This document shows positions 18,204 to 59,051 of a DNA stretch of 64,000 nt, one piece after another (position 1 is the first letter of the stretch; every line of letters starts with the position of its first letter). Origin of the DNA: Sipunculus nudus (Eukaryota; Annelida; Sipuncula; Golfingiida; Sipunculidae); contig CM049311.1 of the NCBI GenBank assembly GCA_026874595.1, positions 71,778,453 to 71,842,452 of the forward strand, read 5' to 3'. The translations under genes and the position numbers were made by a program. Under the pieces are notes generated by a model. The model was not told the DNA's origin. It saw only the letters and a program-made list of their open reading frames with translations, and did not search any database.

Positions 18204-21200
18204 TTAGCGAACCTGTGAGCTTATGCGATGGTGTGGCGTCGTCCGGCGTCCGTCGTCTGTACGTTAACCCATACTATCTTGAAAATGGCAAGAGTTAGCA
18301 TTACAAAATTTTATGCAAAAAATTAGTCATCTAATAAAATCCATCGGATTTTGCTTATTTTTTGGCTAACTGCATTTTCTTAGATTTTATAGGGAAAAAG
18401 CTTAAAAAATCTTCTTCTCTGAAACTGTTCAGCCAAATTGTCCAATATTTCACAGAAATGATCCCTGGAACAATCTCTCTCAAGTTTGTTCAAATGGTTT
18501 AAGTTTGGTGATTTTTGGCCGAGTTACAAGAAGTTAAACTTAGTCATCTGTCCAAAAAAGCATACTAAAATTACAATCTCAGCAACTGCTGGAGCTATCA
18601 TCACCAAATTTTATGGGAATGTTTGTCACATGAGTCATATCTGAAATTGAGGTATTGGTGGCGCCACCTGCATCAGCCTTTTTTGTATGGGGTCATCAGT
18701 GCCCTTATCATACTGAGGGCTACAAAAACTCTGAATCCATATGGCCAAATTGTTTAATATCGCACAGAAATGATCTTTGGGTACTGCTTTCTGAATTTTG
18801 TTCAAATGGTCTCAGTTCAGTGACTTTTGGCTGAATTATGGGAAGCTGAATTTAGCCATATGCAATGACAGCCCATTTTAGCTCAGTGGCTAAAAAGATC
18901 TTCTTCTCAAAAACCACTAGGCCAAATTCTAAAATCTCACACATTAATTATCCTTAGATGTTGATAATTCAAGTTTGTTCAAATGGTTTTGGTTCAATGA
19001 TTTTTGGTCGAGTTATGAGAAGCTTAACTTAGCCATTTTTCTGTATTTTCATATGAGTTATAAATCTACAAAACATTTTTGAAGGACTCAACTGAGGCTA
19101 ATTTGTTTAATATTTTACAACTTGAGCTAGCATCATGAAATTTAATGTAAAAAATTAGCAATCTGAAAAACTCTGCATTTTTTTAGATTTTATTTAGAAA
19201 AAGCTAAAAAATTGTTTAAAATCTTCTCCTCCAAAACTGTCAAGCCAAATTATTCAATATTTCACAGAAATAATCTCTTATACCATCTCTCTCAAGTTTG
19301 TTAAAATGGTTAAATTTGGGTGAGTTTTGGCCGAGTTACAGGAAGTTGAACTTTGTCATCTGTCAAAAAAAGCATACTAAAAATGACAATCTCAGAAATG
19401 GCCGTAGCTTTCATCACCAAATTTTATGCCAGTGTTGGTCACATAAGTCATATATGAAATTGAGGTATTGGTGGCACCACCTGCCTTGACCTTTTTTTGA
19501 ACTGGGGTCATTGGTCCTCTGTATATTAACCCATAATTTCTCAGGAATAGCAGGAGCTACCATCCCCAGATTTTATGCAATAATCTCTCACATATCAAAT
19601 GTTGTGAGAATGTTTAATTTTTTGTTATCTGCACTTACTTAAATTTTATAGGGAAAAGGCTGAAAAACCTTTAAAAGTCTTCTACTTGTAAACAGTCCAG
19701 CCAAATTGTTAATATTTTACAGAAATGATCCCAGAGGCAAGCCTTCTCAAGTTTGTTCAAATGGTTTGCATTTGATGAATTTTAGCGGAATTACACAAAT
19801 TTGAACTTAGTTATTTTGCCAAGTAAGCATACTGACATAGTACTCTCAGAAATGACAGAACCTAGCATTACCAAGTATTGTGCAAATGTTGGTCACATGA
19901 CTCATATTTGAAGTTGCAGATTTCGTGATGCCACCTACATTGACCTGGTTTTTATTTGCAAAAACCTCATAATTTTAACCTCTTTCAGCTGATAATGTTT
20001 ATGATGAAACTGTCAAGTTGAATCGTTCAGTTTTTCAAAAGAAATATCCTAGGACATGGTTCTTTCAATCATATATGAATAGATTGAGTTTGTTGATTTT
20101 TGGTTGAGTCGTGAAAAGCTTAAGTTGGTCTTATGGCCATTATTATGTCTATTTCAAACTGAGGACTGCAATAGTGTTCTTCTACCAAATTGTTGTTTCA
20201 ATTATAACTTCTGTGACATTGCACAAAAATTATTCTTAGGTGGCCTTTGCTCAAGTTTACTTGAATGATTTTTGGCAGAATTATTGGACCTTTAGCAATG
20301 AAAGAACTGCATCTTTTATTATTATAGATATTTTTGGTAAAACAGTTTATGAATATGTCAGCTTGAAAAAAAGCATTTTAGCCAAAGTCTTTCAGTATGT
20401 GTAAACAGATTTACCAACAGGCAAAGATTGTGTCTGTATCATTACATAGGTTGAAAAACTGCCAACTGTTTCAGATTTTGCAACAGATCAAGAGTTCATT
20501 CAGTGCAGCCAGATATAGGTCAAGAGTTCAGTCAGTGCAGCCAAGCACAAGGCATGTGATCACTGCATGGGTGTCATGTGAACACCTCATGGCCAGCATG
20601 TGATCACCTCATGGGTAGCATGTGATCACCTCATGAGTATCATGTGATCACCCCATGGGTGTCATGCCCCTCAGGGCTGCATGTGGAGCCAATCTGTGAG
20701 CTTATGCAATGATGTGGCTACTATTTCAGATTTGGCAACAGGCCAAAGGTCAGTCTGGATCTATTTATAGCTTCGGCAGACTGCCAACTGTATCAGAATT
20801 GGGTAACAGGTCAAGAGTTCACTCAGTGCAGCTAGGTATAGGTCAAAAGTTCACTCAGTCTAGCTAGTTCACTCAGTGCAGTAGCTGCATTCTATTTATA
20901 GCGTTGGCAGACTGCCCACTGTGTCAGATTATGCAACAGGTCAAGAGTTCACTCAGTGCAGCCAGGTACAGGTCAAAAGTTCACTCAGTCTAGCCAGATG
21001 CAGGTCGTGAGTTCACTTAGTGCAGTAGCCTGAGCTAGCAATTTGTCACAGTTAACTTGGGACAACTGCCTTTCTCACCTAAGCCTGGTCAGCCCCATGC
21101 ATCAGACTTAAGGTTAGTCTGATGTATTGGCCTGATATATTTGCCTGTCTGTGATGGCTTTCTTGTTCACAAGACAGGTGTCGCCACCTACAATGACTTT

Positions 21201-21630
21201 TGCACAATGTATGTGCCTCCTTATTTCTACAGAGGAATTTGATATAATCAGCCTGAAATTGGGCATATTTATACATATCAGATAGCTTTGTCATATACAA
21301 GACTGGTGGTGCCACCTACAAAAATTTTTGCACAGTGTTTCCCTGCCTATTTCTCAAGAGGGGTTTGATATATCAGTCTGAAATTGGGCATATGTATATA
21401 TCTCTGATAGCTTTGTTGTATACAAAACTGGTGGTGCCAGCTACAATCATTTTTGTGTTGTGTGCACCCATACGAGAATTTCAGCAGTGATGTTTGTGTA
21501 ATTGGTTCTTATTCAAAATGTTTATTACTTGCATTGTTCATATACATGAAAAGTAATGGTCCAGTATTGAAGAATTATACCTGGTGTATTTCCCAATGCA
21601 CAGGTTCGCATAAGGCCTGTAGGCCTTGTT
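18204..21630 (+). mobile_element. Full-length family B element, Helentron-like (B-1)
   Basis: It starts TTAGCGAACCTGTG and ends CACAGGTTCGC, then TAAGGCCTGTAGGCCT hairpin, then TGTT. The 11-bp GCGAACCTGTG and CACAGGTTCGC are perfect subterminal inverted repeats. A GTCC/GTCCG-rich patch lies about 30 bp inside the 5' end. The interior is a string of diverged units of roughly 130-180 bp, each repeating 'GCCAAATTGTNCAATATTTCACAG', 'CTCAAGTTTGTTCAAATGG' and 'TTTTTGGCCGAGTTA'. Several carry the GTGGCGCCACCTGC-type palindrome (18659, 19470, 21176, 21305, 21431). A minisatellite block lies at 20480-21030. No protein is encoded. The ends fit non-autonomous Helentron/Helitron2 structure as I know it. 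Confidence 0.78.
20480..21030 (+). repeat. Minisatellites inside B-1
   Basis: There are two interleaved motifs. One is 'AGGTCAAGAGTTCACTCAG' with 'TGCAGCCAGGTACAGG', repeated from about 20490 to 20530 and from 20810 to 21030. The other is a 22-25-bp unit close to CATGTGATCACCTCATGGGT at about 20555-20665. Both recur in B-3 at 60.78-61.20 kb, so they are part of the family. Confidence 0.8.
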
Positions 21631-22362
21631 TCATCTTTTAAGAAATTTGATTGTTCATATAAAGAGGTGTTACAGATTCTCTGGCAATGCAAATATTTAT
21701 ATTGTATTAACAGTGGAATACCGACCCTTTTACAGTAATTGATTTGAGCATTTACAAATAGCCCACCAAGAAACAATATATATACCAGGATCTTTATTTG
21801 TGAGCGTCTTCATAAGACTAATTATTATACTGGAAGAAATATTAGCTCACGTGCAGTGTGGTTATTTTCGGTTACTGATGACTCTGTGATGAGCATGCAT
21901 GTGTTTGTTATATAATCCATTGGACATATCAGTGTTTATCATAGATATAGCAGAATGAATATTATACATAAAGCTTGAGATATTAGTTGGGTATCATGTT
22001 TAGCCCATGGTTTGTTACTTGGTCTATTATCTGCCAGCCTTAAAGTTCAGTGTGTGCTGTATAATTATTCTTTCTTGAAACCTTATAGGGATCACTGCCA
22101 GAGAATGTTTTGTGTTATTTTGTTGTATCATATTCACCTGGTTCATAAATTTGAAATGTCAGGATTAAGGCCTTGAGCACGATCCGGTTAACTCATAAAG
22201 GGTTACTGCTCACTAAATCATTTGTTAAGAATGTTAAGTTGATGTAGTACCTAGTTTAAAGTCAAATAATATTTAAAAAAAACCCTGAAAAGTCATAACG
22301 AGGTCATGACATTTTATTTTTTTGTGAAATTGATATTTTTCATTGATTTGTATTTAATTGCA

Positions 22363-23535
22363 TCTGCCAAAAACAAAGTTTTGTGGATACTATGTTTAAG
22401 ATTTTGCTGCCGTGGCCGCAGTTTTCGTTTCAGGAATAGAACTCTGAGACCACTGGACAGATTTTTCCAAAACTTTACACCACTATTGGTTCACATGTGA
22501 ATGGTGCAAAAATATTTTGCGTTGACCTTTGACCTTTCCTCTCTCCAGTGGGTCCATCTGTGCATCTGTTTTGACACATTAACCCATATATCTTCAGACT
22601 CTTTGACCAATCAGACTAAAAATTTTGCACAAATGTAGCCCTTGGATAGCTTTATAACATACACAAAATATGGTGGCACCACCTGCAACCATTTTTGCAA
22701 AGCTTCCATCTGTTCATCTGCCTTGGGATTAAATCATTCATATCTCTGCAGTGGTTGGACTTATCCACTTGAAATTTTGCATGTGTATACATCCTGAATA
22801 GCTTTTTTGTTTTTAACAGGTGGCGCCACCTACATTCTCATTCAGGCTGCAGACATCCAGGCTTATATCCCAGGACTGGTTTGACGTATCCTCCTGAAAT
22901 TTGGCATGTGTATAGATCTCACATAGCTCTTTATCATACACAAAATGGTGGTGCCACCTGCAACCATTTTTGCACAGCGTCCCTCTGTTTTTCTGCAGTG
23001 GGATATAATCACTCCTATCTCGGCCGTGGTTTAACTTATCTGCCTAAAGTTTTGCATGTATATACATCTTGGATAGCTTTGTGGATTTCGTGGTAGGGAG
23101 CGCCACCTACATTTATGTTAACACTGGAGAAAACTGGAGAATATCTCAGGACTGGTTTGACATTTCCCCCTGAAATTTTGCATGTGGATAGATCTCACAT
23201 AGCTCTTGATCATACACAAAACGGTGCCACCTGCAACAATTTTTGCACAGCATCCTTCTGTTTGTGTGCTGTGGAATAAAATCACTCATAAACAAGCAGT
23301 GGTTTGACTTATCTGCCTAAAATTTTGCATATGTATACAACTCGGATAGCTTTCTAGATTTTGTGGCAGGTGGCACCAGCTACATACACATTTCAGTTGC
23401 AGACATCCATGCTAATGTGCAACAGACCTCACTCCTATTTCCCCTTGCCACTCGATCCATGCCTCATTTCACCCGTCCCACTGACTCCGATTTTGACAGA
23501 TACACGGAGTCGCTTGTTGACTACCCATATTCTAG
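22363..23535 (+). mobile_element. Full-length family C Helitron-like element (C-2)
   Basis: It starts A|TCTGCCAAAAAC and ends ATTCTAG|T, 1173 bp. The 5' end forms an imperfect hairpin (TCTGCCAAAA...TTTTGTGGATAC). The interior has about six units of roughly 130-150 bp, each with '...TTTTGCAnGTGTATACATC', 'ATAGCTTT' and a palindrome of the GGTGGCGCCACCT type (22673, 22818, 22948, 23097, 23225, 23370). The 3' tail matches C-1 and C-4. TC at the start, CTAG at the end, an A before and a T after, and no target duplication are canonical Helitron features. It encodes nothing. Confidence 0.82.
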
Positions 23536-24009
23536 TTTCATATTGAAATCTGATATAATTTGCAAACGAAAGACTATTTAATTAATAGCCTTAAGATGCT
23601 TTGAGATATGGACAATAGAGAGCATGTCTTACAGAAATAAACATTTCACATAAAACTGGAGTGTTTATGGTTAATTCTGTTTCAAGTTAAACTTACTGGT
23701 TGAATACTTTATTGTTTTAATAGGGTCCTTAAAAATCATGAAATTTATCCAGTCATGGGTCTATGACCTTGGCTGCTCAGTCATATAAGCACTGTCTGAT
23801 AAATTTGAGAGCAAAGAAAACAACAGATATGTAAGATAAAAATATGAAAAAAAAATTTAAAGATTAATAAAAATGATATACTTAGCTATTAAAATATCTT
23901 GTTTAGAGAAAATTCATATAATCAAATTTGTATTTTTAGCTCAGCTGACTGTAAGTCATCTGAGCTATAGGGATCACCTTTTGTCCATCGTCCGTCCGGC
24001 CGTCCGGGA

Positions 24010-27000
24010 GTCTGTCCATTAACAGGGAACAAATCGTAACCGCTAGAACTGGAATCTTCTTACTTGACATCCTGGGAGGTCCATGAAAAATCTCCTTGGA
24101 AACCAGAAATTAGGTCTCTGTTACCCATAACCTTCCAGCTATGGTCATGATTTTTGGCATACATATTGATCATGAGAGGTTCCATCAGTTCCTGAAGACT
24201 GGTGGCGCCACCTGTATTTTTCGAATTTTTACGATTTTTTTTCTCTATTTTTGAGACCTTTAAAAATGTGAACATCTGTTAACAAGGCACAAATCGTAAC
24301 GACTGGACTTAGAATCTTCATTCTCGACACACTGAGAGACCTATGAAAAGTCTCCATGGAAACCAGAAATTAGGTCTCTGTTAACCATATCCTTCCAGCT
24401 ATGGGGCCCCAAACTACCCCCCAGAAAAGTAAAAAATTTCATACAAAAACTTCAATATCTCATTAAATACTTGACTGATGGTCATGATTTTTGGCATACA
24501 TATTGATCGTGAGATGTTCCATCACTTCCTGCAGACTGGTGGCGCCACCTGTATCGTTCAATTTTTTACGAATTTTTTTCTCTATTTTTCAGACCTTTCA
24601 AAATGTAAACATCTGTTAATGTGGCACAAATCATAACGAATGGACCTAGAATCTTCATTCTCATTAACCATATCCTTCGAGCTATGGGGCCCTTAAGTAC
24701 CCCCCCCCCCCCCCCCCGCCCCCAGGAGTAGTCAAAAATTTCATACAAAAACTTCAATATCTCAATAACTACATCACTGATGGTCATGATTTTTGGCATA
24801 CATATTGATCATGAGAAGTTCCATCAGTTCCTGCAGACTTGTGGCGCCACCTGTATTGTTCGATTTTTTACGATTTTTTCCCTCTATTTTTGAGACCTTT
24901 AAGGATGCTGTCATCTGTTAATGTGGCACAAATCATAACGAATGGACCTAGAATCTTCATTCTCAACACTGAGAGACCTATGAGAAGTCTCCATGGAAAC
25001 CAGAAATTAGGTCTCTGTTACCCATATTCCTCGAGCTATGGAGCCCCAAATTACCCCCAAGAAAAGTAAAAAATTTCATCAGTTCCTGCAGACTTGTGGC
25101 GCCACCTGTATTGTTCGATTTTTTACGATTTTTTCCTCTATTTTTGAGACCTTTAAGGATGCTGTCATCTGTTAGCATGGCACAAATCGTAACGACTGGA
25201 CCTAGAATCTTCATTCTTGATACACTTAGAGGTCCATGAAAAATATCCTTGGAAACCAGAAATTAGGTCTCTGTTAACCAGATCCTTCGAGCTATTGGGC
25301 CCCAAAGTACCCCCCCCCCCCCTCCCCAGAGTAGTCAAAAATTTCATACAAAAACTTCAATATCTCAATAACTGCATCACTGATGGTCATGATTTTTGGC
25401 ATACATATTGATTATTAGATGTTCCATCAGTTCCTGCAGACTTGTGGCGCCACCTGTATTGTTCGATTTACTACGATTTTTTCCTCTGTTTTTGAGACCT
25501 TTAAGGATGCTGTCATCTGTTAACGTGGCACAAATCATAATGACTGGACCTAGAATCTTCATTCTCGACACACTGAGAGACCTATGAAAAGTCTCCATGG
25601 AAACCAAAATTAGGTCTCTGTTACCCATATTCTTCGAGCTATGGAGCCCTAAAGTACCCCCAAGAAAAGTAAAAAATTTCATACAAAAACTTCAATATCT
25701 CATTAACTACTTGACTAATGGTCATGATTTGTGGCATAACTATTGATCATGAGATGTGTCATCTGTTCCTGCAGACTGGTGGCGCCACCTGTATCGTTCA
25801 ATTTTTTACGATTTTTTCCTCTATTTTTGAGACCTTTAAGGATGCTGTCATCTGTTAGCATGGCACAAATCGTAACGACTGGACCTAGAATCTTCATTCT
25901 CGACGCACTAGAAGACCTATGAAAGTCTCCATGGAACCAGAAATAAGGTCTCTGTTACCCATATCCTTCGAGCTGTGGGGCCCCAAAGTACCCCCCCAGA
26001 GTAGTCAAAAATTTCATACAAAAACTTCAATATCTCAATAACTACATCACTGATGGTCATGATTTTTGGCATACATATTGATTATGAGATGTTCCATCAG
26101 TTCCTGCAGACTGGTGGCGCCACCTATATTGTTTGATTTTTTTACGATTTCTTCCTCTATTTTTGAGACCTTTAAGGATGCTGTCATGTGTTAGCATGGC
26201 ACAAATCGTAACGACTGGACCTAGGATCTTCATTCTCAATACACTGAGAGACCTATGAAAAGTCTCCATGGAAACCAGAAATTAGGTCTCTGTTACCCAT
26301 ATCCTTCGAGCTATGGAACCCCAAAGTACCCCCCAGAGTAGTCAAAAATTTCATACAAAAACTTCAATATCTCAATACTTCACTGATGGTCATGATTTGT
26401 GGCATAACTATTGATCAAGAGGTGTTCCATCAGTTCCTGCAGACTGGTGGCACAACCTGTATTTGTTCGGGTTTTTTTTTACGAATGTTTTATCTATTTT
26501 TGAGACCTTTAAAGATATGAACATCTGTTAACAGGGCACAAATCATAAAAACTGGACCTAGAATCTTCATTCTTGACACACAGAGAGACCCATGAAAATT
26601 CTCCATGGAAACCTGAAATTAGGTCTCTGTTACCCATATTCTTTAGGCTGTATGGCTCCAAAATACCCCCCAGAATAATGGAAAATTTTATACAAAAAGT
26701 GCAGTATCTCAATAACTACAACACTGATGGTCATGATTTTTGGCATACATATTGATCATGAGCTGTTCCATCAGTTTCTGCAGAGAGGGTGCGCCACCTC
26801 TATTTTTTTCAATTTTTTATGAATTTTTTTTCTCTTTTTTCGAGACCTTTGAAGATGTGGCCATCTGTTAACAGGGCACAAATCGTAACGACTGGACCTA
26901 GGATCTTCATTCTCAATACACTGAGAGACCTATGAAAAGTCTCCATGGAAACCAGAAATTAGGTCTCTGTTACCCATATCCTTCGAGCTATGGAACCCCA

Positions 27001-29000
27001 AAGTACCCCCCAGAGTAGTCAAAAATTTCATACAAAAACTTCAATATCTCAATACTTCACTGATGGTCATGATTTGTGGCATAACTATTGATCAAGAGGT
27101 GTTCCATCAGTTCCTGCAGACTGGTGGCACAACCTGTATTTGTTCGGGTTTTTTTTACGAATGTTTTATCTATTTTTGAGACCTTTAAAGATATGAACAT
27201 CTGTTAACAGGGCACAAATCATCAAAACTGGACCTAGAATCTTCATTCTTGACACACAGGGAGACCCATGAAAATTCTCCATGGAAACCTGAAATTAGGT
27301 CTCTGTTACCCATATTCTTTAGGCTGTATGGCTCCAAAATACCCCCCAGAATAATGGAAAATTTTATACAAAAAGTGCAGTATCTCAATAACTACAACAC
27401 TGATGGTCATGATTTTTGGCATACATATTGATCATGAGCTGTTCCATCAGTTTCTGCAGAGAGGGTGCGCCACCTCTATTTTTTTCAATTTTTTATGAAT
27501 TTTTTTTCTCTTTTTTCGAGACCTTTGAAGATGTGGCCATCTGTTAACAGGGCACAAATCGTAACGACTACACCTAGAATCTTCTCTCTTGACATGCAGG
27601 GAGGCCCATAAAAAGTCTCTTTGGAAACCTGAAATTAGGTCTCTGTTACCCATAACCTTTGAGCTATGGGGCTCCGAAGTACCCCCCAGAATAATGGAAA
27701 ATTTGATACAAAAGCTCAAGTATCTAAACAACTATTGCAGTGATCACCATGATTCTTTGCATGGATATTGATCATGGAATGTGTCATCAGTTTCTGCAGT
27801 ATGGTGGCGCCACCTGTATTTTTTTTATTTTTACGAATTTTTTTCTCTATTTTTGAGACCTCATAAGATGCGGTCATCTGTTAACATGGCACAAATCGTA
27901 ACAACTGGACCTAGAATCTTCTCTCTTGACATGCTGAGAGGCCCATGAAAAGTCTCCTTAAAAACTTGAAATTAGGTCTCTGTTACCCATAACCTCTGAG
28001 CTATGGGGCTCCGAAGTACCCCCCAGAATAATGGAAAATTTGATACAAAAGCTCAAGTATCTGAACAATTATTATATTGATCACCATGATTCTTTGCATG
28101 GATATTGATCATGAAATGTTTCATCAGTTTCTGCATTCTGGTGGCGCCACCTGTATTTTTTCGATTTTTTAAAGTTTTTTTTCTCTATTTTTGTAACCTT
28201 TTAAGATTTGGTCATCTGTTAACAGGGCACAACTCATATCAACTGGACCTAGAATCTTCTGTCATGACATGCAAGGACGGTCATAAAAAGTCTATATGGA
28301 AACCTGATACAAGGTCTCTGTTACTGATATCCTTTCAGCCATGAGGCTCGGAAGTTCCTCCCAGAATAATGCAAAAATTGATACAATAACTGATGCATTG
28401 ATCACCATGATTGTCTACATTTGTATTGATAATGGCTTGTTTCATCAGTTTCTGTAGACTGGTGGTGCCACCTGTATTTTGATTTTTTAAGAATTTTTTT
28501 CTTGATTTTTGAGACCTTTAAACATTTGGTCATCTGTTAACAGACCACAAATCATAATGACTTGACCTAGAATCTTCTTTCTTAACATGCAGGGAGGTCC
28601 ATGAAACATCTTGGAAACCTGAAATTAGGTCTCTGTTACCCATATCCTTCATGCTCTGGGGCTCCGAAGTACTCCCCAGAGTAAAGATTTGGTCATCTGT
28701 TAACAGAGCACAAATTATAATGACTTGACCTAGAATCTCCTTTCTTTATATGCTGGGAGGCCCCTGAAAAGTCTCCTTGTGCACCTGAAATTACATCTCT
28801 GTTACCCATATCCTTCATCCTATGCGGCTTTGAAATACCCCCCAGAATAAACATTTGGTCATCTGTTAACAGGGCACAAATCATAATGACTGGACCTAGA
28901 ATTTTATTTTTTGACATGCTGGGAGACCCCTGAAAAGTCATCTTGTAAACCTTGAAAATAGGTGTCTGTTACCCATATCCTTCATGCTACAGAGCTCCAT
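24010..29000 (+). repeat. Tandem array of ~335-bp units inside A-1
   Basis: The unit landmark CATCTGTTAACAGGGCACAA (with variants) recurs near 24276, 24610, 24914, 25166, 25514, 25848, 26187, 26521, 26860, 27198, 27540, 27873, 28207, 28529, 28693 and 28857. Spacing is mostly 333-342 bp; shortened units occur at 24914-25166 and after 28529. Each complete unit runs: CTGTTAAC start; 'GGACCTAGAATCTTCATTCT'; 'GAAATTAGGTCTCTGTTACC'; a CCCCCC run; 'TTGGCATACATATTGATC'; the palindrome GGTGGCGCCACCTG; and 'CTCTATTTTTGAGACCTTT'. Divergence is higher toward the 3' end (after 27540), typical of arrays homogenised in the middle. Confidence 0.92.
26205..27558 (+). repeat. 677-bp dimeric tandem duplication in the A-1 array
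   Basis: The two-unit block from about 26205 to 26881 is repeated at about 26882-27558 with an offset of 677 bp (676 after a T-run indel). It is nearly identical: rare variants such as 'CTAGGATCTT', 'GGTGGCACAACCTG' and 'GAGAGGGTGCGCCACCTC' occur in both halves and in no other unit. It is a recent higher-order duplication. Confidence 0.9.
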
Positions 29001-29159
29001 AGTACCCCAATGAATATTGGATGATTTTATACAAAAGGTCAAGTTTGGAAAAAGTATTTAATTCAAATTTGACATTCAGATGATAAAATTACTTTTGTCA
29101 ATGTCTTCCTGGTCAGCTGAGCGTCATGACCCCTGGGTCACTTGTTTGTATCTCCTGAT

Positions 29160-31780: not shown

Positions 31781-31787
31781 TAGGTTT

Positions 31788-34583
31788 TTTAGCTCAGCTG
31801 ACTATAAGTCATCTGAGCTATAGTCGTGGTCCAATGTCCGTCGTCCGTCCCTCTGTCTGTCTGTCCGTCCGGATGGTCTTCTGTAAGACTGGCATGTTTC
31901 GACACCATTGGACCTAAGAATCTAAAATTCGGCATACAGTTAGGTGTCCCCAGAATCTCCTACCATGCCGAAAATTGGGTCAAAAGGACGTCGTTCCTTC
32001 GAGATATTAAGGAAAAACCTCAATTTTTTATTAGAAATCTATTTTCACTCTTCAGGATTGCCTAATATCAAAACCACTCATCTGGTTTACTTCATATTTA
32101 CCATAAATATTCGTCTGTATAGTTCCTATGTACCTGCCAGAAATTAAGTCAGTATTATTTAATGTAAAAAGGTTATAGGCCCAAACATAATGGACTTTGT
32201 AAAAAAAATCAGGAAAGATATTTGGTCACTCAGGACGAAAGTGTTAAAGGTAGGGACTTTTTTCAGTAATACAACTTTAATTAATCAAAATTTAATTGTA
32301 TACCAAAAATTAGATCAAAATCTGTTAAATTTTTTTAAATATTGGCAAAAATATAAAATTGGTACCTTAAATTTTGCCCAAGTTTGACCATGGCACGTTT
32401 TTTCCTGTAACTGCTGTGGATTTAATTTTCAAAGCATGTTTTTGTAAGCATTTCAACTGTTAACACCAAAAATTTGAAACCAGTTGATCAAAAACTGTAG
32501 ATTTTATTCAAGTTTTCAAGCACCATGTCACGTATTGTTTACATCAAGCTAGTGTAATGCAGTTTGCTAGAGCTGAGCTCCCCAGCTTCAGCTCTAAGTT
32601 CCTTAAATTTGGCATACAGTTAAATGTCTCCAAAATCCCCTACCATGCCAAGAATTTGGTCACTAGGACTTAATTCCTTTGAGATATTAATGAAAAACTT
32701 CATTTTTCCATTAAAAACCCATTGTTACACTTTAAGACTGCCTAATATCAAAACCACTGATCTGACTTTGATCATATATAATATACATATTTTTCTATAC
32801 ATTCGCTATGCACATGCCAGAAATTATGTCGGTATTGCTTAATTGTTTTAAGTTATGGGCCAAAACATAATGCACTTTTTAAAAAATCAAGAAATATATT
32901 TACTCCCTTAACAAGAGGATTGCTGAAGCTAGAGATTTTTTGTCAGGGATGTAACATTATTTAATCAAGATTCAGTTGAATACCCAAAATTAGTTCTGAA
33001 TTTTTCAAATTTTATAAGTTATTAGTATAAATTTATACATTTGTTTCCTGAGAGCATTTGATATAATTTTCATATTATGCACACATAAGGATTTCATCTT
33101 TGTAGTTTAGAAAGCTGAAAGAAATTGGCCAAATATTGTAGCTTTTATTAATGTTTTTATGAGACCATGTCAGAACTAGGCTCTACCCAGCCCCTCTTCA
33201 GTCACCTGTAAGTTGACTGAGAGCATTTGATATAATTTTCATATTATGCACACATAAGGATTTCATCTTTGTAGTTTAGAAAGCTGAAAGAAATTGGCCA
33301 AATATTGTAGCTTTTATTAATGTTTTTATGAGACAATGTCAGAACTAGGCTCTACCCAGCCCCTCTTCAGTCACCTGTCAGTTGACCTTGTTGACCTTTC
33401 ATCAAATTATGCACGCTTGAGGGAGGCATACACTGGGGCAGCCAGGCAGCAAATGCCCAGTCACAGTTGATCCAGGTATCCAACCCAACTCATCTAGTAG
33501 TTGTTTCGAAAAACAACATAACAATAAACAATAAATTAATGAATTTTATTGGTTTTTAATAACAAATTAAAGAAAAATTAATAGAAAAGGAATTTGGTAG
33601 TTGTTGAGTAACAGAAAATTAACTTGCAGTTACTGATGATGTAAGAATCTTGTAGGGATGGATAGAATGTCAATGTCAATGTTATTCCAAATAACACCAT
33701 GCAGTCACCTATGGTATTTTTCAGTTCAATTTTAATGATAAAAAAAAATAAATCATATTATTCATTACTAATCATTAGGGATCATATGAAGGAAATTAAT
33801 GATAGACAAAGATGCAGTTGATAATATTAATCTAGATTCCTACTATGTCTAGTGTGTAGATTGATGTGAAAGTAGTCCAAAGTGAATATATTACATTTAT
33901 TTTTTTAAATATAAATAAAAGCCATAAAACCAGGTACTTATGATCATTATTTAAATTTGTGAATTTTGTATATATTCTGGATTCTCAACATCATTGTTTG
34001 GCTAAAACTGAATAAATACTAGACATGGTGCAAATGCTTTGCAAATGTATTTGAAAATGAATATGAATATGTACTGCATTAAAAAATTTTATTGCATAAG
34101 AATGGGAATTCAGGTAAAAATGAAAGTATTTGAATACCAGTGCAGATACTTTCAAAATGTATTCATGAATGCATTCATGAATATGTTCTATAATATTATT
34201 TTAATGATCATTTCAGTTATATTTTATTATTTTTAAATCATAGGATTTTCTTGTTATTTTTTTTAATAAAAATTATATTGGCACAATGTTTTGTTATTAT
34301 ATTCTAATAAATAGTTAAACTTTTATTATATGTGCTGCTCATAAGTTATATGGCCAAGTCAAAATCTGTGTGACAATAACACTCCATTTGTTAATAAAAG
34401 AAATGAAATCAATCCTCTTCCCTGTCTCCAAAGATACTATCAAAATCATACATAAGCTAAACACCAACAACTCATAATAAAGCTTATATTTATTACCACA
34501 CAAAAACCAGCATGTGCCTCATTCCCAAATCATATTTTTATCATATATAACAGCTGAGCGCCGTGACCCATAGGTCCCTTGTT
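31788..34583 (+). mobile_element. Family A element, second subtype (A-2)
   Basis: It starts TTAGCTCAGCTGACTATAAG and ends CAGCTGAGC, then CCGTGACCCATAGGTCCC, then TTGTT (34583). A GTCCGTCGTCCGTCC patch lies about 45 bp in. The interior differs from A-1: units contain 'CTAAAATTCGGCATACAGTTA', 'CTACCATGCC', 'TTGAGATATTAA' and 'TGCCTAATATCAAAACCACT', seen at 31923-32100 and again at 32601-32775 (offset about 678 bp). Downstream is a 169-bp tandem duplication, then about 1.2 kb of unique AT-rich sequence shared with 47.8-48.9 kb. No protein is encoded. Confidence 0.8.
33048..33385 (+). repeat. 169-bp tandem duplication within A-2
   Basis: The stretch starting CTGAGAGCATTTGATATAAT at 33048 and ending near TCACCTGTAAGTTGA is repeated at 33217-33385 with only one or two differences (ACCATG/ACAATG, CTGTAAG/CTGTCAG). 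The paralogous copy at 47575-47740 has a single unit, so the duplication arose in this copy. Confidence 0.92.
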
Positions 34584-34584
34584 C

Positions 34585-35870
34585 TTTTGTCCTTCTGGGT
34601 TGGACCCCCCTTTTCCTTAATCCTGGATTGGTCACTGCTTGCATGTAAAACTAGAGACTTTTATATTGAAATTCTGTACAGCAGAAGTACATTTATGGAA
34701 GCATACACAGTACATAGAGGATAATCTTACATAAGGAAATAGATAGGAAAATTAAGAGACTATGCAAATCAAGATTATCTAAGTCCATCCTTTCCTGTTG
34801 ACATATATTTCAGATTTCCGACAAATTCTTACACTCATTATAAAATTACATTTACATAAGGGGCAACATCTTTTTCAGCTATTTTTGTATCTTTACCAAA
34901 TTTTCAACAGTTCTTACTGGGAGGGTTTGCTTAAGATTATTTTAGAATCTTTGAACAGAAAAATAAACTGACTTGGGAGAATCTGGCCATGCATAAGAGG
35001 GAGTTCTAGGTGCAAGTTTTAGTGTTCTATAGTGAGCCTGTGAACAGTAAAAGTGAATAAGTTGGCAGATAGAAATTATTATATGTAAATTAAAAAAAAA
35101 AATTATTGAATCAAGTTCAATAAGTGACAGAAAGTTGAGGAACAGTAACAGCAATCTGTATAATTTCAAAAAGGAGTTGAGGAAAACCATGAATCAACTT
35201 AAGGAACCAACAGAACATGCTGGTTTGTGATGCCTTTTAACCTTAGTGGAAATCCTTGATGTATATTTCTGCTTTAACAATTCCAGCTCCAGGGATAGTC
35301 TCAGCTCAGGTAACGCATAAAGCCAAGTTAGTGTGAATTTTTCATAGAAGTTTCAAGTGCCTCAAGGCCCTGTGCTGATGGTCAGGCTGTTAAAGGTTAA
35401 TTTGGTTCTCCTCTTGTATTGGCAGACATCCAGGCTGTTTCTTGTGGTGCCCTGAACCACTGTGGGTTTACTGTAAAATTTACAAAAAAAAAAATCATTA
35501 TAAAATATATGAGATTAAAATATGTTATTAACGAACACCTAATTACCTTCACATCTGGGAGTTCTTCAAACGTGATTAGAAATAAACTTGAACAATCTAA
35601 TTAAAATGAAGTTCTGATATATCAGAAGTGTGTATTTCAAGAGATATGTGTAAGGTATTATCAATATAAGAAGGGTTGATAAAAAATAAAGTCGTGGCAT
35701 CATAGTGAAATTAATTTTTTTAAGACATCAGAGATGATAACCGATACCAAGCAGGTTACCTTGGTCTCAATATCAGAAGTGAAGCAAATAAGATATACAG
35801 TTGTCACCTGATAATCAGACACAAAATTTAACATTGAGGTTACACTGGACCCACTTTTTTTAAAGATTTT
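34585..35870. other. AT-rich non-coding stretch
   Basis: No gene was seen. The first 60 bp continue the CCCCCCTT-rich older repeat interrupted by A-2. Small open frames on both strands are unremarkable. Confidence 0.5.
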
Positions 35871-43093: not shown

Positions 43094-46000
43094 TTAGCTC
43101 AGCTGACTGAAAGTCATCTGAGCTATAGCGATCACTCTTTGTCCGTCGTCTGTCTGTCCGTCTGTCCGTCCGTTAACCAGGCACAAATCGTAACCACTGG
43201 ACCTAGAACCTTGTAACTTGGGATTCTGAGAGGTCCATAAAAAATCTCCTTGGAAACCAGAAATTAGGTCTCTGTTACCCATATCCTTCGAGCTGTGTGG
43301 CCCCAAAGTACCCCCCAGAAAAGTCAAAAATTTCATACAAAAACTTCAATATCTCATTAACTACTTGACTGATGGTCATGATTTTTGGCATACATATTGA
43401 TCATGAGATGTTACATCACTTCCTGCAGACTGGTGGCGCCACCTGTATTTTTCGATTTTTTACGAATTTTTTTCTCTATTTTTGAGACCTTTAAAAATGT
43501 GAACATCTGTTAACAAGGCACAAATCATAAAGACTGGACTTAGAATCTTAATTCTTGACACACTGAGAGGTCCATGAAAAATCTCCTTGGAAACCAGAAA
43601 TTAGGTCTCTGTTACCCATATCCTTCGAGCTATGGGGCCCCAAAGTACCCCCCAGAATAGTAAAAAATTTCATACAAAAACTTTAATATTTCAATAACTA
43701 CATCACTGATGGTCTTCATTTTTGGCATACATATTGATCATGAGATGTTCGATCAGTTCCTGCAGACTGGTGGCGCCACCTGTACTGTTTGATTTTTTAC
43801 GATTTTTTTCCTCTATTTTTGAGACCTTTGAGGATGCTGTCATCTGTTAGCGTGGCACAAATCGTAACGACTGGACCTAGAATCTTCATTTTCGACACAC
43901 TGAGAGACCTATGAGGGTCTCCATGGAAACCAGAAATTAGGTCTCTGTTACCCATATCCTTCGAGCTATGGGGCCCAAAATTACCCCCCAGAATAGTCAA
44001 AAATTTCATACAAAAACTTCAATATCTCATTAACTACATCACTGATGGTCATGATTTTCGACATACATATTGATCATGAGATGTTTCATCAGTTTGTGCA
44101 GACTGGTGGCGCCACCTGTATTTTTCAATGTTCACGAATTGTTTTCTCCATTTTTGAGACCTTTAAGGATGTAGTTATCTGTCAACAGGGTACAAATCGT
44201 AACAACTGGACCTAGAATCTTCGTTCTTGACACACAGGGAGACCCATGATAAGTCTCCATGGAAACCTGAAATTTGGTCTCTGTTACCCATATCCTTTGA
44301 GCTATGGCACTCCAAAGTACAGCTCAGAATAATGGAAAATTTGATACAAAAGCTAAAGTATCTGAACAACTAATGCAGAGATAACCATAATTGTTTGCAT
44401 GGATATTGATCATGGAGTGTTTCATAAGTTTCTGCAGACTGGTGGTGGCACCACCTGTATTTGTTCGGTTTTTTTTACGAAATTTTTCTGTATTTTTGAG
44501 ACCTTTAAAGATATGAACATCTGTTAACAGGGCACAAATCATAAAAACTGGACCAAGAATCTTCATTCTTGACACACAGGGAGACCCATGAAAAGTCTTC
44601 CATGGAAACTTGAAATTAGGTCTCTGTTACCCATATTCTTTAAGCTGTATGGGTCCAAAATACCCCCCCCCCCCAGAATAATGGAAAATTTGAATAACTA
44701 CAACACTGATGGTCATGATTTTCGGCATACATATGGATCATGAGCTGTTCCATCAGTTTCTGCAGACTGGGTGTGCCACCTCTATTTTTTTTCAAATTTT
44801 TACGAATTTTTTTCTTTTTTTTGAGACCTTTAAAGATGTGGTTATCTGTCAACAGGGTACAAATCGCAACAACTCGACCTAGAATCTTCATTCTTGTCAT
44901 GCAAGGAGGCCCATGAAAGGTGCCTGTGGAAACTTGAAATTAGGTCTCTGTTACCCATATCCTTCAAGCTATAGGACTCCGAAGTATCCCTCAGAATAAT
45001 GGACAATTTGATACAAAAACTGAAGTATCTGAACAACTAATGCAGAGATCACCATGATTTTTTGCATGGATATTGACCATTAAGTGTTTTTATTAGTCTG
45101 CAGACTGGTGGAGCCACCTGTATTTTTGTATCCGCCAAAACGAATTTTTGCGGATACTAGGTTTTTGACCGAGTTCCTCCACCGCGGCGGCGTTCGTTTC
45201 CAGAGAGCTCCTCGGAGACTAATGGACCGATTTTTTCCAAACTTACACCTATTATCGGGTCACATGTGAACTGGTGCCTAACCAATTTGCGTTGACCTCT
45301 GACCTTTCCTCTCTATCCAGTGTCCATTTGTGGGTCTGTTTCCACTCATAAACCCTCATATCTCGGGAACCATTTGACCGATCAGGAAATAAAATTGATA
45401 CAAATGTAGCCCTTGGATTGCTTTATAACATACACAAAAAATGGTGGCGCCACCTGTAACCATGTTTGCACAGTGTCCATCTGTTCATCTGCCTTGGGTT
45501 AAAATCACTCATATCTCTGCAGTGAATTGACTAATTTACCTGAAATTCGTCATGCGTATACATCCAGGATAGCTTTCTTGATTTTATGACAGGTGGCGCC
45601 ACCTACGTTCACGTTCACGCTGATGACATCCAAGCTTATATCTTGGGAACCGTTTGACCGATCAGGAAATAAAATTTATACAAATGTAGCCCTTTGATAG
45701 CTCTGTAACATATAAAAAAATGGTGGCGCCACCTGTAACAATGTTTGCACAGCGTCTGTCTGTTAGTCTGCCGTGGCCTAAAATCACTCATTTCTCTGTA
45801 GTGGTTCGACATAACTGCCTAAAATTTTGCAGGTTTATACATCGTGGACAGCTTTCTTGATTTTATGACAGGTGGCGCCACCTACATTCTAGTTAACGCT
45901 GCACACATCCAAGCTCATATCTCAGGAACCATTTGACCGATTGGGCCAAAATTGTGCATGTGTTTAGATCTCACATAGGTCTTTATCATACACAAAACTG

Positions 46001-46481
46001 GAGGGGTTACCTGCAAAGATTTTTGCACAGTGTTTGTCTGTTTGTCTGCCATGGGCAAAAATCGCTCATATACATGTAGTGGTTTGACTTTTCTGCCTAA
46101 AATTTTGCAGGTGTATACAACTTGGACAGCTTTCTGGATTTGTGGTAGGTGGCACAACCTACATACACATTTAGGCTGCAGACATCCATGCTAATATGCA
46201 ACATACCTCACTCTATTTCCCCTTGCCACTCAATCCATGCCTCACTATCCGATTTTGGCAGATACATGTAGTCACTTGTCGGTTACCCGTATTCTAGTTT
46301 TAAAAGTTTACACATTTTTCTCTATTTTTGAGATATATAAATACAGACTAAATCTTGGCCTGTTGGTTAATCTGTTTGATGCTTCAGTTGAATGGGTATA
46401 TACTACCATTCTGATGATAAAATTTCCTTTTGCGAATCTCTTCCCAGTCAGCTGAGCGTCATGACCCATGGGTCACTTGTT
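43094..46481 (+). mobile_element. Family A element with ~335-bp array, interrupted by C (A-5)
   Basis: It starts TTAGCTCAGCTGACT with a GTCCGTCGTCTGTC patch and ends TCAGCTGAGC, then the perfect palindrome TGACCCATGGGTCA, then CTTGTT (46481). The interior has about six units of the same ~335-bp repeat as A-1 (palindromes near 43431, 43770, 44105, 44447, 44770 and 45107). The last unit is broken at 45130/45131 by the C-4 element and resumes at 46298. No protein is encoded. Confidence 0.85.
45131..46297 (+). mobile_element. Family C Helitron-like element nested in A-5 (C-4)
   Basis: It starts TCCGCCAAAACG after ...TATTTTTGTA and ends ATTCTAG before TTTTAAAAG, 1167 bp. The 5' hairpin GTATCCGCC..GCGGATAC is well preserved. 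About six units carry near-perfect palindromes (45444, 45593, 45722, 45869, then degenerate at 46010 and 46147). Joining the outer flanks restores a continuous A-unit sequence ('CACCTGTATTTTTG.A' then 'TTTTAAAAGTTT..CTCTATTTTTGAG'), as in the intact unit at 28141-28190. The insertion therefore lies between A and T with no duplication, as in canonical Helitrons. Confidence 0.88.
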
Positions 46482-46876
46482 TACAAAGTCCATTATGTTC
46501 GGGCCCATAATCTAAAGAATTTATACTTAACAGACTTAATTTCTGGCATGTACATAGGAACTATATAGAGGAATATTTATGGTAAATATGAGGAAAAACA
46601 GATGAGTGGTTTTGATATTAGGCAGTCCTTAAGTGTGAAAAAAGGATTTTAATAAAAAATTGAGGTTTTTCCTTAATTTCTCAAAGGAACGAAATTGCAG
46701 AGACCCAGTTTCCGGCTTGGAAGGAGATCTTGGGGACATCTAACATTATGCTGAATTTTGGATTACTAGGTCTTACAGTTTCAAAAACGTGCCACAACTA
46801 CGGACGGATGGACGGACGACGGACAATGGACCACGACTATAGCTCAGATGACTTATAGTCGTCTGAGCTAAAAATG
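46482..46876 (-). mobile_element. Inverted 5' fragment of family A, second subtype
   Basis: On the minus strand it reads TTAGCTCAGACGACTATAAG, a GTCCGTCGTCCGTCC patch and the A-2 phrases 'GGCAT.A.GTTAGATGTCCCC', 'GGAAAAACCTCAATTTTT' and 'CTGCCTAATATCAAAACCACTCATCTG'. It stops at the exact 3' end of A-5. It has no 3' terminus of its own. Confidence 0.75.
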
Positions 46877-47185
46877 ATTTTTTCAGTTAAAGAATATCAA
46901 TGTTTTAATTCAGGTCTTATCAGAGCATTTTCAGCAGACATAGATATGCTGCAAATAAAATGCTTGAATGGAAGTCAGTGATGGAATATATAAACTCAGA
47001 ATCCTCTGGTAGAAGCTCCTGTTTTACATGAGGCCATATTTATGATAGCCAGGAGGCCCAATTAAAATCAACAAGCATGTCAGAAACAGAGTCTTATATA
47101 TGTTGCCAGAGTAAGTCCTGAGGGAAACAGAAAAATATATCGTGCACTTTGTGTTAAAGTAGATACATAGATGCACGGTGTATAA
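46877..47185. other. Non-coding stretch
   Basis: About 300 bp with no recognised feature between the inverted A fragment and the A-2 paralogue. Confidence 0.5.
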
Positions 47186-47189
47186 TGAA

Positions 47190-48895
47190 AAACTTCTTTT
47201 TCCATTAAAAACCCATTTTTACACAAGACTGCCTAATATCAAAACCACTGATCTGACTTTGATCATATAGAATATACATATTTTTCTATACATTTGCTAT
47301 GCACATGCCAGAAATGATGTCAGTATTGCATAAATGTTTTAAGTTATGGGCCCAAACATAATGCACTTTTTATAAAAGCAAGAAATATATTTACTCCCTT
47401 AACAAGAGGATTGCTGAAGCTAGAGATTTTTTGTCAGGTTTAAACCTTATTTAATCAAGATTCAATTGAATACCCACAATTAGTTCTGAATTTTTCAAAT
47501 TTTATAAGTTATTAGTATAAATATAAAATTAGTACCTTCAATTTTGCCCAAGTTTGACCATGGCACATTTGTTTCCTGTGAGCACTGTTGATATAATTTT
47601 CATATCATGCACACATAAGGATTTCAGCTTTTAAGTTTAGAGAGCTGATAGAAATTGGCCAATAATTGTAGCTTTTATTATTGTTTTTATGAGACCATGT
47701 CAGACACAGGCTCTCCCCAGCCCCTCTTCAGTCACCTGTATGTTGACCTTTCAGCAAATTATGCACACCTGAGGCAAGGCATACACTGGGGTAGCTAGGC
47801 AGCTAGGCACAGTTGATCCAGGTGTCCAACCCAACTTATCTAGTAGTTGTTTTGACCAACAACATAACAGTAAACTATAAATTAATAAATTTTTATTGGT
47901 TTTTAATAACAAATTAAAGAAAAATTAATAGAAAAGGAATTTGTTAGTTGATGAGTAACAGGAAATTAACTTGCTGTTACTGATGATGTAAGAATCTTGT
48001 ATGGAAAGATAGAATGTCAAGTATTCCAAATAACACCATGCAGTCACCTATGGTATTTTTCAGTTCAGTTTTAATGATAACAAAAATAAATCTTATTATT
48101 CATTACTAATCATTGGGGATCATATGAAGGAAATTAATGATAGACAAAGATGCAGTTGATAATATTAATCTAGATTCCTACTATATCTAGGGTGTAGATT
48201 GATGTGAAAGTAGTCAAAAGTGAATATAATACATTTATTTTTTTATATAAATAAAAGCCATAAAACCAGGTACTTATGATCATTATTTAGATTTGTGAAT
48301 TTTGTATATTCTGGATTCTCAACATCATTGTTTGGCTAAAACTGAATAATTACCAGACATGGTGCAAATACTTTGCAAATGTATTTGAATATGAATCATT
48401 ATAAATTTTTTTGCATAAGAATGGGAATTCAGGTAAAAATGAAAGTATTTGAATACCAGTACAAATACTTTAAAAATGTATTCATGAATGCATTTATGAA
48501 TATATTCTGTAATATTCTTTAAATAGTCATTTCAGTTATATTTTATTAAAAAAATCATATGATTCTCTTTATTATTTTTGATAAAAATTATATTTGGTAC
48601 AATATTTGTAATTAAATTTTAATAAATAGTTTAACTCATATGTGCTGCTTATAAGTTATATGGCCAAGTCAAAATCTGTGTGACAATAGCACTCCATTTG
48701 TCAATAAAATAAATGAAATCATTCCTCTTCCCTGTCTCCAAAGATACTATCAAAATCATACATAAGCTAAACACCAACAACTCATAATACAGCTTATATT
48801 TATTACTACACAAAACCAGCATGTGCCTCATTTCCAAATCTATTATATTTGGTCATATATAACAGCTGAGCGCCGTGACTCATGGGTCCCTTGTT
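47190..48895 (+). mobile_element. 5'-truncated A copy paralogous to 32690-34583
   Basis: From 'TGAAAAACTTC.TTTTTCCATTAAAAACCCATT' to CAGCTGAGC, then CCGTGACTCATGGGTCCC, then TTGTT (48895), the sequence matches A-2 base for base over long stretches with scattered indels; by eye about 90% or better. It lacks the A 5' terminus and has one unit where A-2 has the 169-bp duplication. Confidence 0.82.
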
Positions 48896-48904
48896 CTTCT
48901 ATTT

Positions 48905-55167: not shown

Positions 55168-56395
55168 TCCCCAGACAAAGTCAGGGATACTATGTTTTCA
55201 TGACGGTCCCGCCACTGCCGCTGCCGCATAAAAATCTTGTTGGCGCGATAACTAAAAAATATTTCACCGATCTTTACCAAACTTGGTATATGTATAGATA
55301 TGGGTGAGAGGATGACACCTATTTAAAATGAGGTCATGACCTTTACTAGGAGAGTGTCCTTGGACCGTGAATAGGTCTAATTTTGGTGAAAATCACACAA
55401 ATTCTTAAATATCTCAAGAAACCTTGCATGGATTGATCCCAAAATCAAGTTGATTGAAGATCATGGATAGGATTGCCATGTTTAAGAAACTGGTGGCGCC
55501 ACCTATTATTCTTTACTTGTTTTCGTGCTTTTTACTACCCCCAAAATTGCCATGTACTTGACAGTTGTGTGAGCATTGTAAGTCAAAAACTAATGGACAG
55601 ATATCTTTTAAATTATGCATATACATAGATATGGGTTATGGGATGATGTTTATTTAAATTAGGGTCATAACCTTTCCTATTAGAGTGGCCTTGACCTTGA
55701 ATATTCCCATATTTGGTGAAATTCACACAAAATCTTTAATATCTCAGTAAGGGATACATGGAATGAACCAAAAATCAAATTGACCGAAGATCTTGGATAG
55801 TTTTGTCTTTTGCAGAAGACAGGTGGCGCCACCTTGTGTTGTTTTCTTGTTAAAATGATGTTAACACAATAACTTTGTAAGAATTTGAGGTACAGTCACC
55901 AAACCCACAGGTTTGATGCATCTTATTGACAGCTAGGTCAAGTTCTAACATGGATTACCTTGATGCATTTTTTAAGGTCACAGCAGCAGTTATGCTAAAA
56001 TGATATTAGCGCAATAACTCAAGAAGAATTTGTGGTACAGTCACCAAACCTACAGTTTAGATGCATCTTATCAAGGGCTAGGTCAAGTTCCAATATGGAT
56101 AACCTTGATGCATTTTTCAAGGTCACAGAGGCGATAACGCTGAAATGATGTTAACTTTAATATCTCACTGAGGGATGCATGGATTGGTCCAAAAATCAAA
56201 TTGACATAAGATCTTTGATAGCATTGTTTTCTGCAGAAGACAAGTGGCGCCACCTTATGTTGTTTTCTTGCTAAAATGATGTTTAAATGGAATAACTTTG
56301 TAAGAATTTGAGGTACAGTCATCAAGGGCTGGGGGGGGGGGGGGGGGTAATTGTCTGGGGATACTATTGCACCTGCAGTGCCAAGAAATATGTAG
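55168..56395 (+). mobile_element. Family D Helitron-like element (D-2), with empty-site support
   Basis: It starts GTA|TCCCCAGACAAAG with a hairpin (GTATCCC..GGGATAC), like family C. Near its 3' end it has the inverted GTATCCCCAGACAA (TTGTCTGGGGATAC, 56351-56364), then an imperfect hairpin (TTGCACctgcaGTGCCAA), then 11 nt later GTAG|TTT. The paralogue at 62790-62810 reads straight through ('CACACATTATTTGTTTATG'), placing the insertion between A and T without duplication. Units carry perfect or near-perfect palindromes at 55491, 55822 and 56244 and the 'GACCTTGAATATTCCCATATTTGG' phrase. It encodes no protein. Confidence 0.8.
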
Positions 56396-56704
56396 TTTGT
56401 TTGTGAAATGTAACTTTTATGTAACACTTACTGTAGGCCCATTTTTTGCCTTGATGCATCATTAACTGGTTTCAGGCCACAGGTTTCATTTATTACGCAG
56501 TGAATATGCTTTAGCTAATGTCCATTATTCTATTATTTACAGATATTTATTTTAGCAGGGAATTTTCTTTTAGCTTTTTTTTTATTGTGATAATATTTTA
56601 TTATTTTGACACGTACACCATATATTACAAATAACAACAATGAATCAATTTTGAAAAAGAGAGAAGAGAGAAATAATTTATTTAACATAAAGTAATTCTC
56701 ATTT

Positions 56705-58490: not shown

Positions 58491-59051
58491 ATAAACATAT
58501 ATTAATGTTCACTTCATTATTGAACTTTGTCATATCATATCATCATATCATTCTGGATTATGTTCTGCGTGTAGGTTAAATCACATTGGTGAATATCTAT
58601 AAATCCTACCTCAAGGTTTTGTGAAAAATCTGCACCTGCCAGCTCATGGCATCTTTGACTTGTTATCCAGCTCTTTTAAATCTCAATACTACTGAACAAA
58701 GTTTAGGCTAAACACATACCATGGGAATCCATGACAGCTGACCAATGACTTGTAAACCTGCACAGCTGACATTAAAGGCTGCAGGTGCACTGTAGACCCT
58801 ACTCTAAAAATCATTGTCCCAACATAAATCTCATTAATAGCTTATTAGCTCAGCTGACTATAAGTCTTCTGAGCTATAGTCGTGGTCCATTGTCCGACGT
58901 CCGTCCGTAGATGTGGCACGTTTTGAAACCGTAAGACCTATAGGAATCCAAAATTTGGCATAATGTTAGATGTCCCCAAGATCTCCTCCAAGCCGAAAAC
59001 TGGATCTTTGCGACTTCGTTCCTTGAGAAATTATGGAAAAACCACAATTTT

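Follow-up and report, generated by a model that had tools for sequence, protein, structure and literature searches.

A palindrome recurring in the central repeats of several HINE families of Sipunculus nudus, a candidate protein-binding site

The window, i.e., the whole stretch of 64,000 nucleotides analysed here (C6:71778453-71842452), comes from a genome of depleted CpG (ratio 0.31) and carries several non-autonomous Helentrons (HINEs) whose tandemly repeated interiors share a palindrome of 14 letters, AGGTGGCGCCACCT. Self-comparison of the window yielded the unit types F1 (337 bp), F2 (149 + 131 bp, i.e., F2a and F2b), F3, F4 and F5. F3 and F4 belong to a single element, since across the genome their matches occur within a few kb of each other and in the same orientation (e.g., on C12, C7 and C16). 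The main features are listed below, where T form designates a palindrome whose first base is T.

24200-24213, no strand: palindrome in the T form, one mismatch, in an F1 unit; the site of the initial annotation
22818-22831, no strand: exact palindrome in an F2a unit
45591-45604, no strand: exact palindrome in an F2a unit
45870-45883, no strand: exact palindrome in an F2a unit
55821-55834, no strand: exact palindrome in an F5 unit
18656-18669, no strand: palindrome in the T form, F3 unit
43431-43444, no strand: palindrome in the T form, F1 unit
55491-55504, no strand: palindrome in the T form, F5 unit
38-51, no strand: palindrome in the T form, F2b unit
21304-21317, no strand: palindrome with two mismatches, F4 unit
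23938-29010 (end approximate, right end not located), + strand: copy a of the F1 HINE; an inverted repeat marks the left end (23938-23967) and is followed by a GTCC-like microsatellite and units of about 337 bp with 12 palindromes (at most two mismatches) from 24200 to 28460; units of about 166 bp without palindrome at 28519-28989
43096-45127, + strand: F1 HINE, copy b; left end at 43096-43125, microsatellite, palindromes at 43431, 43768, 44104, 44443 and 45106; broken by an F2 element in a T-run, 8 bp past the last palindrome
45128-46300, + strand: F2 HINE nested in the preceding F1 element; left end at 45128-45157 (subterminal inverted repeat, or subTIR, and complementary repeat), double units of about 280 bp with two palindromes each (149 + 131 bp), right-end hairpin at 46257-46300
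22349-23538, + strand: second copy of the F2 HINE; palindromes at 22671, 22818, 22946, 23095 and 23368, right end at 23495-23538
1-351, + strand: 3' part of an F2 HINE; palindromes at 38 and 187, right end at 308-351
18206-21628, + strand: F3/F4 HINE; left subTIR at 18206-18226, right subTIR and 3' palindrome at 21599-21628, units of both types, F3 (18656, 19469) and F4 (21176, 21304)
59053-61673, + strand: second copy of the F3/F4 HINE, with decayed palindromes of 3-4 mismatches (59520, 61356, 61476)
55222-56500, + strand: array of F5 units with palindromes at 55491, 55821 and 56242, known without element ends
45358-45441, + strand: upstream module of one F2b unit, running from the box ATATCTCGGGAACC to the palindrome; an example of what the unit types have in common

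The palindrome is real and far over-represented in the window, where 37 matches at two mismatches or fewer (4 exact, at 22818, 45591, 45870 and 55821, 17 with one mismatch and 16 with two) were counted, whereas 100 dinucleotide-shuffled versions average 0.02. Throughout the 1.43-Gb genome, exact copies number 41,719 and the T form 67,276 (both strands together), as against 0 and 2 for the respective reversed-pattern controls, so that the number is beyond chance, as the initial annotation had proposed. The eight positions that it had singled out (39, 18659, 22818, 24201, 43431, 45593, 55491 and 55822) are all genuine sites, misplaced by three bases at most. Three of them are their own reverse complement; the other five read TGGTGGCGCCACCT, in which the outermost pair is broken. 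Sites are strongly clustered in the genome, to judge from ten arbitrary 10-kb pieces that contained no palindrome at two mismatches or fewer and no new families. The first 1.5 Mb of C1 hold 100 exact palindromes among the matches listed, i.e., some 66 per Mb, compared with 29 per Mb for the genome as a whole. A literature search by the letters of the palindrome returned, among the matches listed, no title describing this palindrome in a repeat; for the 9-mer, none of the 25 titles listed (of 120) concerns CTCF, and a single pattern scan of viral contigs gave no match.

By their ends, the F1 (left end only), F2 and F3/F4 carriers are HINEs. Their subterminal inverted repeats are GCGAACCTGTG on the left and CACAGGTTCGC on the right in stacked copies of F3/F4, and GTATCCGCCAAAA and TTTTGGCGGATAC, respectively, in several copies of F2, with mismatches in others. 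The repeat complementary to the 5' subTIR is GTATCCGCCAAAACGAAGTTTTGCGGATAC in F2; the left flank of F1 reads AGCTCAGCTGACT..AGTCATCTGAGCT and continues into GTCC/GTCT runs, and F3 contains GTCC/GTCG-like text. A stem-loop palindrome closes the 3' end, AGGCCTGTAGGCCT in F3/F4 and GTAGTCG-CTTGT-CGACTAC in F2; locus L114 gave no usable right end. Insertion into oligo-T is indicated by at least four T at 21 of 28 F3 left junctions (counted by eye) and by one element that splits an F1 T-run in two (L095 compared with L118, by eye). The elements lack coding capacity, no open reading frame of 120 aa or more being present in the window. Another interspersed repeat family, with no site at two mismatches or fewer, adjoins the HINEs at 31786-34586, 46477-48898 and 61677-62834. 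Left ends whose first 30 bp or so are those of F1 and which then diverge occur at 31791-31820 and 58847-58876 and at four other loci (L008, L010, L044 and L046); in most of them the continuation is TAGTCGTGGTCC, and we read them as another HINE with an exchanged module.

HINEs occur in molluscs and arthropods, and the setting is that of a known transposon class; what is new is that a module is shared, how widely it is shared, and at which level selection acts on it. As far as the available description of Cg_HINE of the Pacific oyster goes (PMC7492417), the present elements resemble it in a left flank composed of a subTIR, a complementary repeat and a microsatellite (GTCY/GTCC/GTCK in several oyster elements), in central satellite-like repeats, in a right-flank subTIR with palindrome, and in oligo-T insertion. 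Flanks and repeats are combined as modules in the oyster, where two segments are common to otherwise dissimilar monomers; here, in contrast, one palindrome recurs in ten unit types, a comparison with the oyster segments that is by description only. SubTIRs, a 3' stem loop, central repeats and TT insertion are likewise shared with DINE-1/HINE elements of insects and mites, although no common internal palindrome is mentioned in what is available of that account (PMC4067079). A conserved palindrome is also described for DTC84, and two well-conserved motifs persist in BIV160/Cg170 despite divergence (PMC5139131, in the part available); the DTC84 palindrome, compared with the present one by description and not by letters, may or may not be identical to it.

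The comparison of unit types excluded the palindrome and involved ten of them, namely six consensi and four single copies (F6-F9; loci L010, L012 and L019), a pair being counted as similar if no more than 3 of 300 shuffles reached its score. The upstream side (about 85 bp) is similar in 29 of the 45 pairs, the downstream side in 8. Upstream similarity involves two regions, a box, ATATCTCAGGAAC, located some 84 bp ahead of the palindrome, and a stretch around AAATTTTGCATG, some 50 bp ahead of it. The four transposon families that had looked unrelated differ in ends and downstream text, but all identified ends are of HINE type and the upstream module is common; likewise, the related text reported around the palindrome is borne out upstream and much less so downstream. 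This comes close to one family with swapped ends, the alternative that the initial annotation had itself set against its reading, as a common upstream module is combined with different ends and different downstream texts.

Such an arrangement would also be expected if the palindrome were an exchange junction at which units recombine or are replaced, one upstream module being placed before varied downstream texts. The imbalance between the two sides fits this explanation, as does the similarity that stops at the palindrome in single pairs, e.g., F7-F9 and F2a-F2b, and a precedent exists in the mollusc satellite phBglII400, where junctions coincide with palindromes, a 12-bp palindrome accounting for 13 of 16 (PMC5139131, in the part available). 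Nevertheless, faster evolution of the downstream side would give an identical picture, and F2a-F4 and F2b-F4 are similar on both sides, so that we consider an exchange junction improbable.

An 84-bp upstream profile from which the palindrome was excluded, though built from palindrome-bearing units, was used to collect units that had not been ascertained by the palindrome. Starting from 319 hits, and after removal of the sites through which loci had been chosen and of hits too near a locus end, 285 units were retained, of which 251 have the palindrome at three mismatches or fewer (37/45 in the window, 66/80 in C1 loci, 148/158 in flank-fetched loci and 0/2 in the arbitrary 10-kb pieces). For fifty control palindromes, made by shuffling the half-site, the corresponding number is 3.7 of 285 on average and 85 at most.

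Whether such persistence exceeds that of neighbouring columns bears on a passive ancestry, in which the palindrome would be a functionless old part of one repeat family, looking conserved through the way it was found. The families are related and the ten unit types were chosen for carrying the palindrome; moreover, raw conservation within families is unexceptional. For this comparison, test units were found with the palindrome masked, ascertained sites were excluded, hits that stopped short of the profile end were dropped, and the raw analysis left out identical rows and rows in which fewer than 10 of the 14 letters of the palindrome were aligned. The palindrome then exceeds the mean of its flanks in five of the six unit types; in five, too, it is equalled or surpassed by other 14-column windows (the register being off by one base in four of the six). 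Once base type, CpG and family are corrected for, the residual pooled over the six unit types, in which some units are counted under both F2b and F4, amounts to 0.094 for the palindrome; the highest among 127 other windows is 0.026. Corrected windows at or above the palindrome number 0/128 in F1, 0/128 in F2a, 5/128 in F2b, 3/127 in F4 and 0/127 in F5; F3, with 13 rows, shows no excess (24/114). In the column-wise check proposed by the initial annotation, the palindrome is unremarkable in raw conservation and, on pooling, the highest of all windows once base and CpG effects are removed. Because units found by their flanks still have the palindrome as their best conserved window after correction, and because divergence between lineages is about five-fold lower at its G/C sites, we hold passive ancestry to be rather unlikely.

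The lineage comparison covers 276 units, each counted once, 219 of which fall into 17 clusters of at least 90% identity that were reduced to lineage consensi. Clusters of fewer than three units were left out, as were those of fewer than four units from the count of private mutations, and the first palindrome column was omitted from both. Between lineages of the same unit type, non-CpG G/C sites differ in 9 of 153 cases in the palindrome and in 267 of 863 in the flanks, a ratio of 0.19 (with clusters formed at 88% or 93%, the ratio is 0.19 or 0.31, respectively); A/T sites differ in 6/58 versus 331/1566 and CpG sites in 10/36 versus 55/120. None of 112 other 13-column windows diverges as little as the palindrome. 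Since lineage comparisons are not independent, we give ratios and window ranks rather than probabilities. That the shared module has been kept under constraint, as had been suggested, is thus supported, the palindrome outlasting its neighbour columns after correction as well as between element lineages.

Within the 90% clusters, the palindrome is somewhat less variable than its flanks (ratios of 0.78 for G/C, 0.61 for A/T and 0.66 for CpG). Private mutations at G/C sites number 23/1739 in the palindrome and 86/10146 in the flanks (ratio 1.56, p = 0.075, small counts), against 4/702 and 119/19000 at A/T sites and 2/286 and 7/908 at CpG sites. The palindrome is kept in multiplying lineages and apparently decays freely in landed copies, a split between lineage and copy that rests on the small private-mutation count. 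Constraint at the level of lineages together with none in private mutations is predicted by a function for the element and not by one that every copy would serve for the host. As private mutations are not rarer in the palindrome, selection by the host on individual copies was rejected as unsupported.

Constraint on multiplying lineages and not on single copies is also what a transposition signal predicts, and the palindrome could serve the Helentron machinery as a site that the Rep/helicase of the autonomous partner, or one of its accessory proteins, would bind, or at which replication would take place or pause. Helitron-type Rep domains do exist in the genome, with at least 143 matches (150 of 195 candidates scored), some of them in frames of more than 2000 aa (e.g., C8:80139053 and C13:66180677). 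This reading is weakened by the flanks of three autonomous Helitron-like elements (28.6 kb, middles left out), in which neither a palindrome at three mismatches or fewer nor similarity to the HINEs was found, although these elements are possibly not the partners. One palindrome per unit would also exceed the needs of a transposition signal. A role in the Helentron machinery is, in our estimation, a minority possibility. The flanks of the three Rep-domain elements contain tandem arrays of their own, unlike those of the present HINEs.

A palindrome is an inverted repeat, and the conserved feature could in principle be a hairpin or cruciform, in DNA or RNA. Across the 17 lineages, however, no pair had been replaced by a different Watson-Crick pair, whereas broken pair states number 22, half of which (11) concern the outermost pair. 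Lacking a spacer, the sequence could form only a 5-bp stem with a GCGC loop, and no Rfam family was detected in the window at the gathering score. The lack of compensatory changes makes a hairpin unlikely, indeed very improbable in our assessment, and a double-stranded protein site likelier. The dimeric protein evoked in the initial annotation is compatible with these data and not demonstrated by them, as the outermost pair is broken in 11 of the 17 lineages.

An element-level site for a protein, whatever that protein is, would be the probable function of the palindrome. More specifically, the best explanation overall, in which we place middling confidence, is that the palindrome, the core of a HINE repeat module, would bind a protein and be selected because of its effect on the element. 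The data show the element type (for F1 by its left end only), the module of about 100 bp common to the central tandem arrays of several HINE families, its conservation, and the level at which this conservation acts. According to the model, the palindrome at the core of the module would be a cis-acting, double-stranded site for a sequence-specific DNA-binding protein. Binding would help the element to multiply, e.g., if it kept the array accessible in the germ line, whether for transcription or for the Helentron machinery; alternatively, the benefit could come from insulation of the array.

Among DNA-binding proteins, CTCF deserves particular attention. Its core consensus is AGRKGGCRS, which the extended vertebrate motif precedes with CCA, and we take the half-site AGGTGGC(G/C) to equal this core. 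AGGTGGCGC, which matches the core, is found on both strands of the exact palindrome; a guide used for deleting the mouse HS+44 CTCF site contains GTGGCGCCACCT. The genome codes for a CTCF-like protein with 58% identity to the vertebrate CTCF fingers over 257 aa, whose five top PDB matches are CTCF chains and whose fingers 4-6 have the same helix contact residues (by eye), fingers 3 and 7 differing in part. Because the half-site equals the core and a CTCF-like gene is present in the genome, host CTCF is tentatively the leading candidate binder. It is no more than that, since the extended motif is missing: in none of the six main unit types does either strand of the flanking consensus have CCA before the core (by eye). 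That the palindrome is kept on both halves also counts against CTCF. A CTCF-like asymmetry at the central CpG was considered and rejected; raw rows had 112 changes of position 7 to T versus 53 of position 8 to A, recent changes 15 versus 14, and with only three lineages informative the hint in the raw rows vanished in the lineage and recent-mutation counts. Large clusters of C2H2 zinc-finger genes turned up in the course of the CTCF search, on C16 (about 38-62 Mb) and also on C7 and C9.

If CTCF does bind, each array would offer several cores readable from either strand. One might then speculate, with low confidence, that HINEs have spread CTCF-type sites, or sites of a similar architectural protein, through the genome in regularly spaced arrays, more than 100,000 in all and kept for the transposon's benefit as a selfish insulator module common to many families. 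The likeness to mammalian transposons with CTCF sites would lie in the spread of a protein site through the genome by a transposon family; in the mammalian case binding is seen by ChIP-seq, as far as that source extends (PMC3368268), whereas the present case has sequence alone and the motif core only.

Conserved boxes in satellite-like repeats and Helentron arrays were noted earlier without a demonstrated role, in the parts of those reports available to us (PMC7492417, PMC5139131). Here, the box is statistically separable from its neighbours and the level at which selection acts can be read, which makes testable what the central repeats do for a HINE. Should the binder be CTCF-like, transposon arrays would be linked to genome folding in an invertebrate.

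A separate possibility is that the palindrome is an insertion hot spot. Thirteen of 59 F3/F4 junctions lie inside other HINEs, five of them (L034, L037, L052, L125 and L005) and a sixth identified by eye (L051) within 25 bp 3' of a palindrome. For comparison, T-runs within 25 bp 3' of a palindrome number 5/1637 in the ten arbitrary 10-kb pieces. This candidate was rejected, as the T-runs of F1, mostly located just there, partly explain the pattern, HINEs cluster regionally (70/1364 T-runs in the window) and the test was post hoc. The F2 element in the T-run past the last palindrome of F1 copy b (45106-45128) has counterparts, an F1 flank of this kind preceding 14 of 18 F2 left ends, although 10 of the 14 loci were chosen by similarity to this copy. 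Since such a flank stands before most F2 left ends, the F1-F2 composite (45106-45157 in the window; L061-L070) has itself multiplied, as one unit and in many copies.
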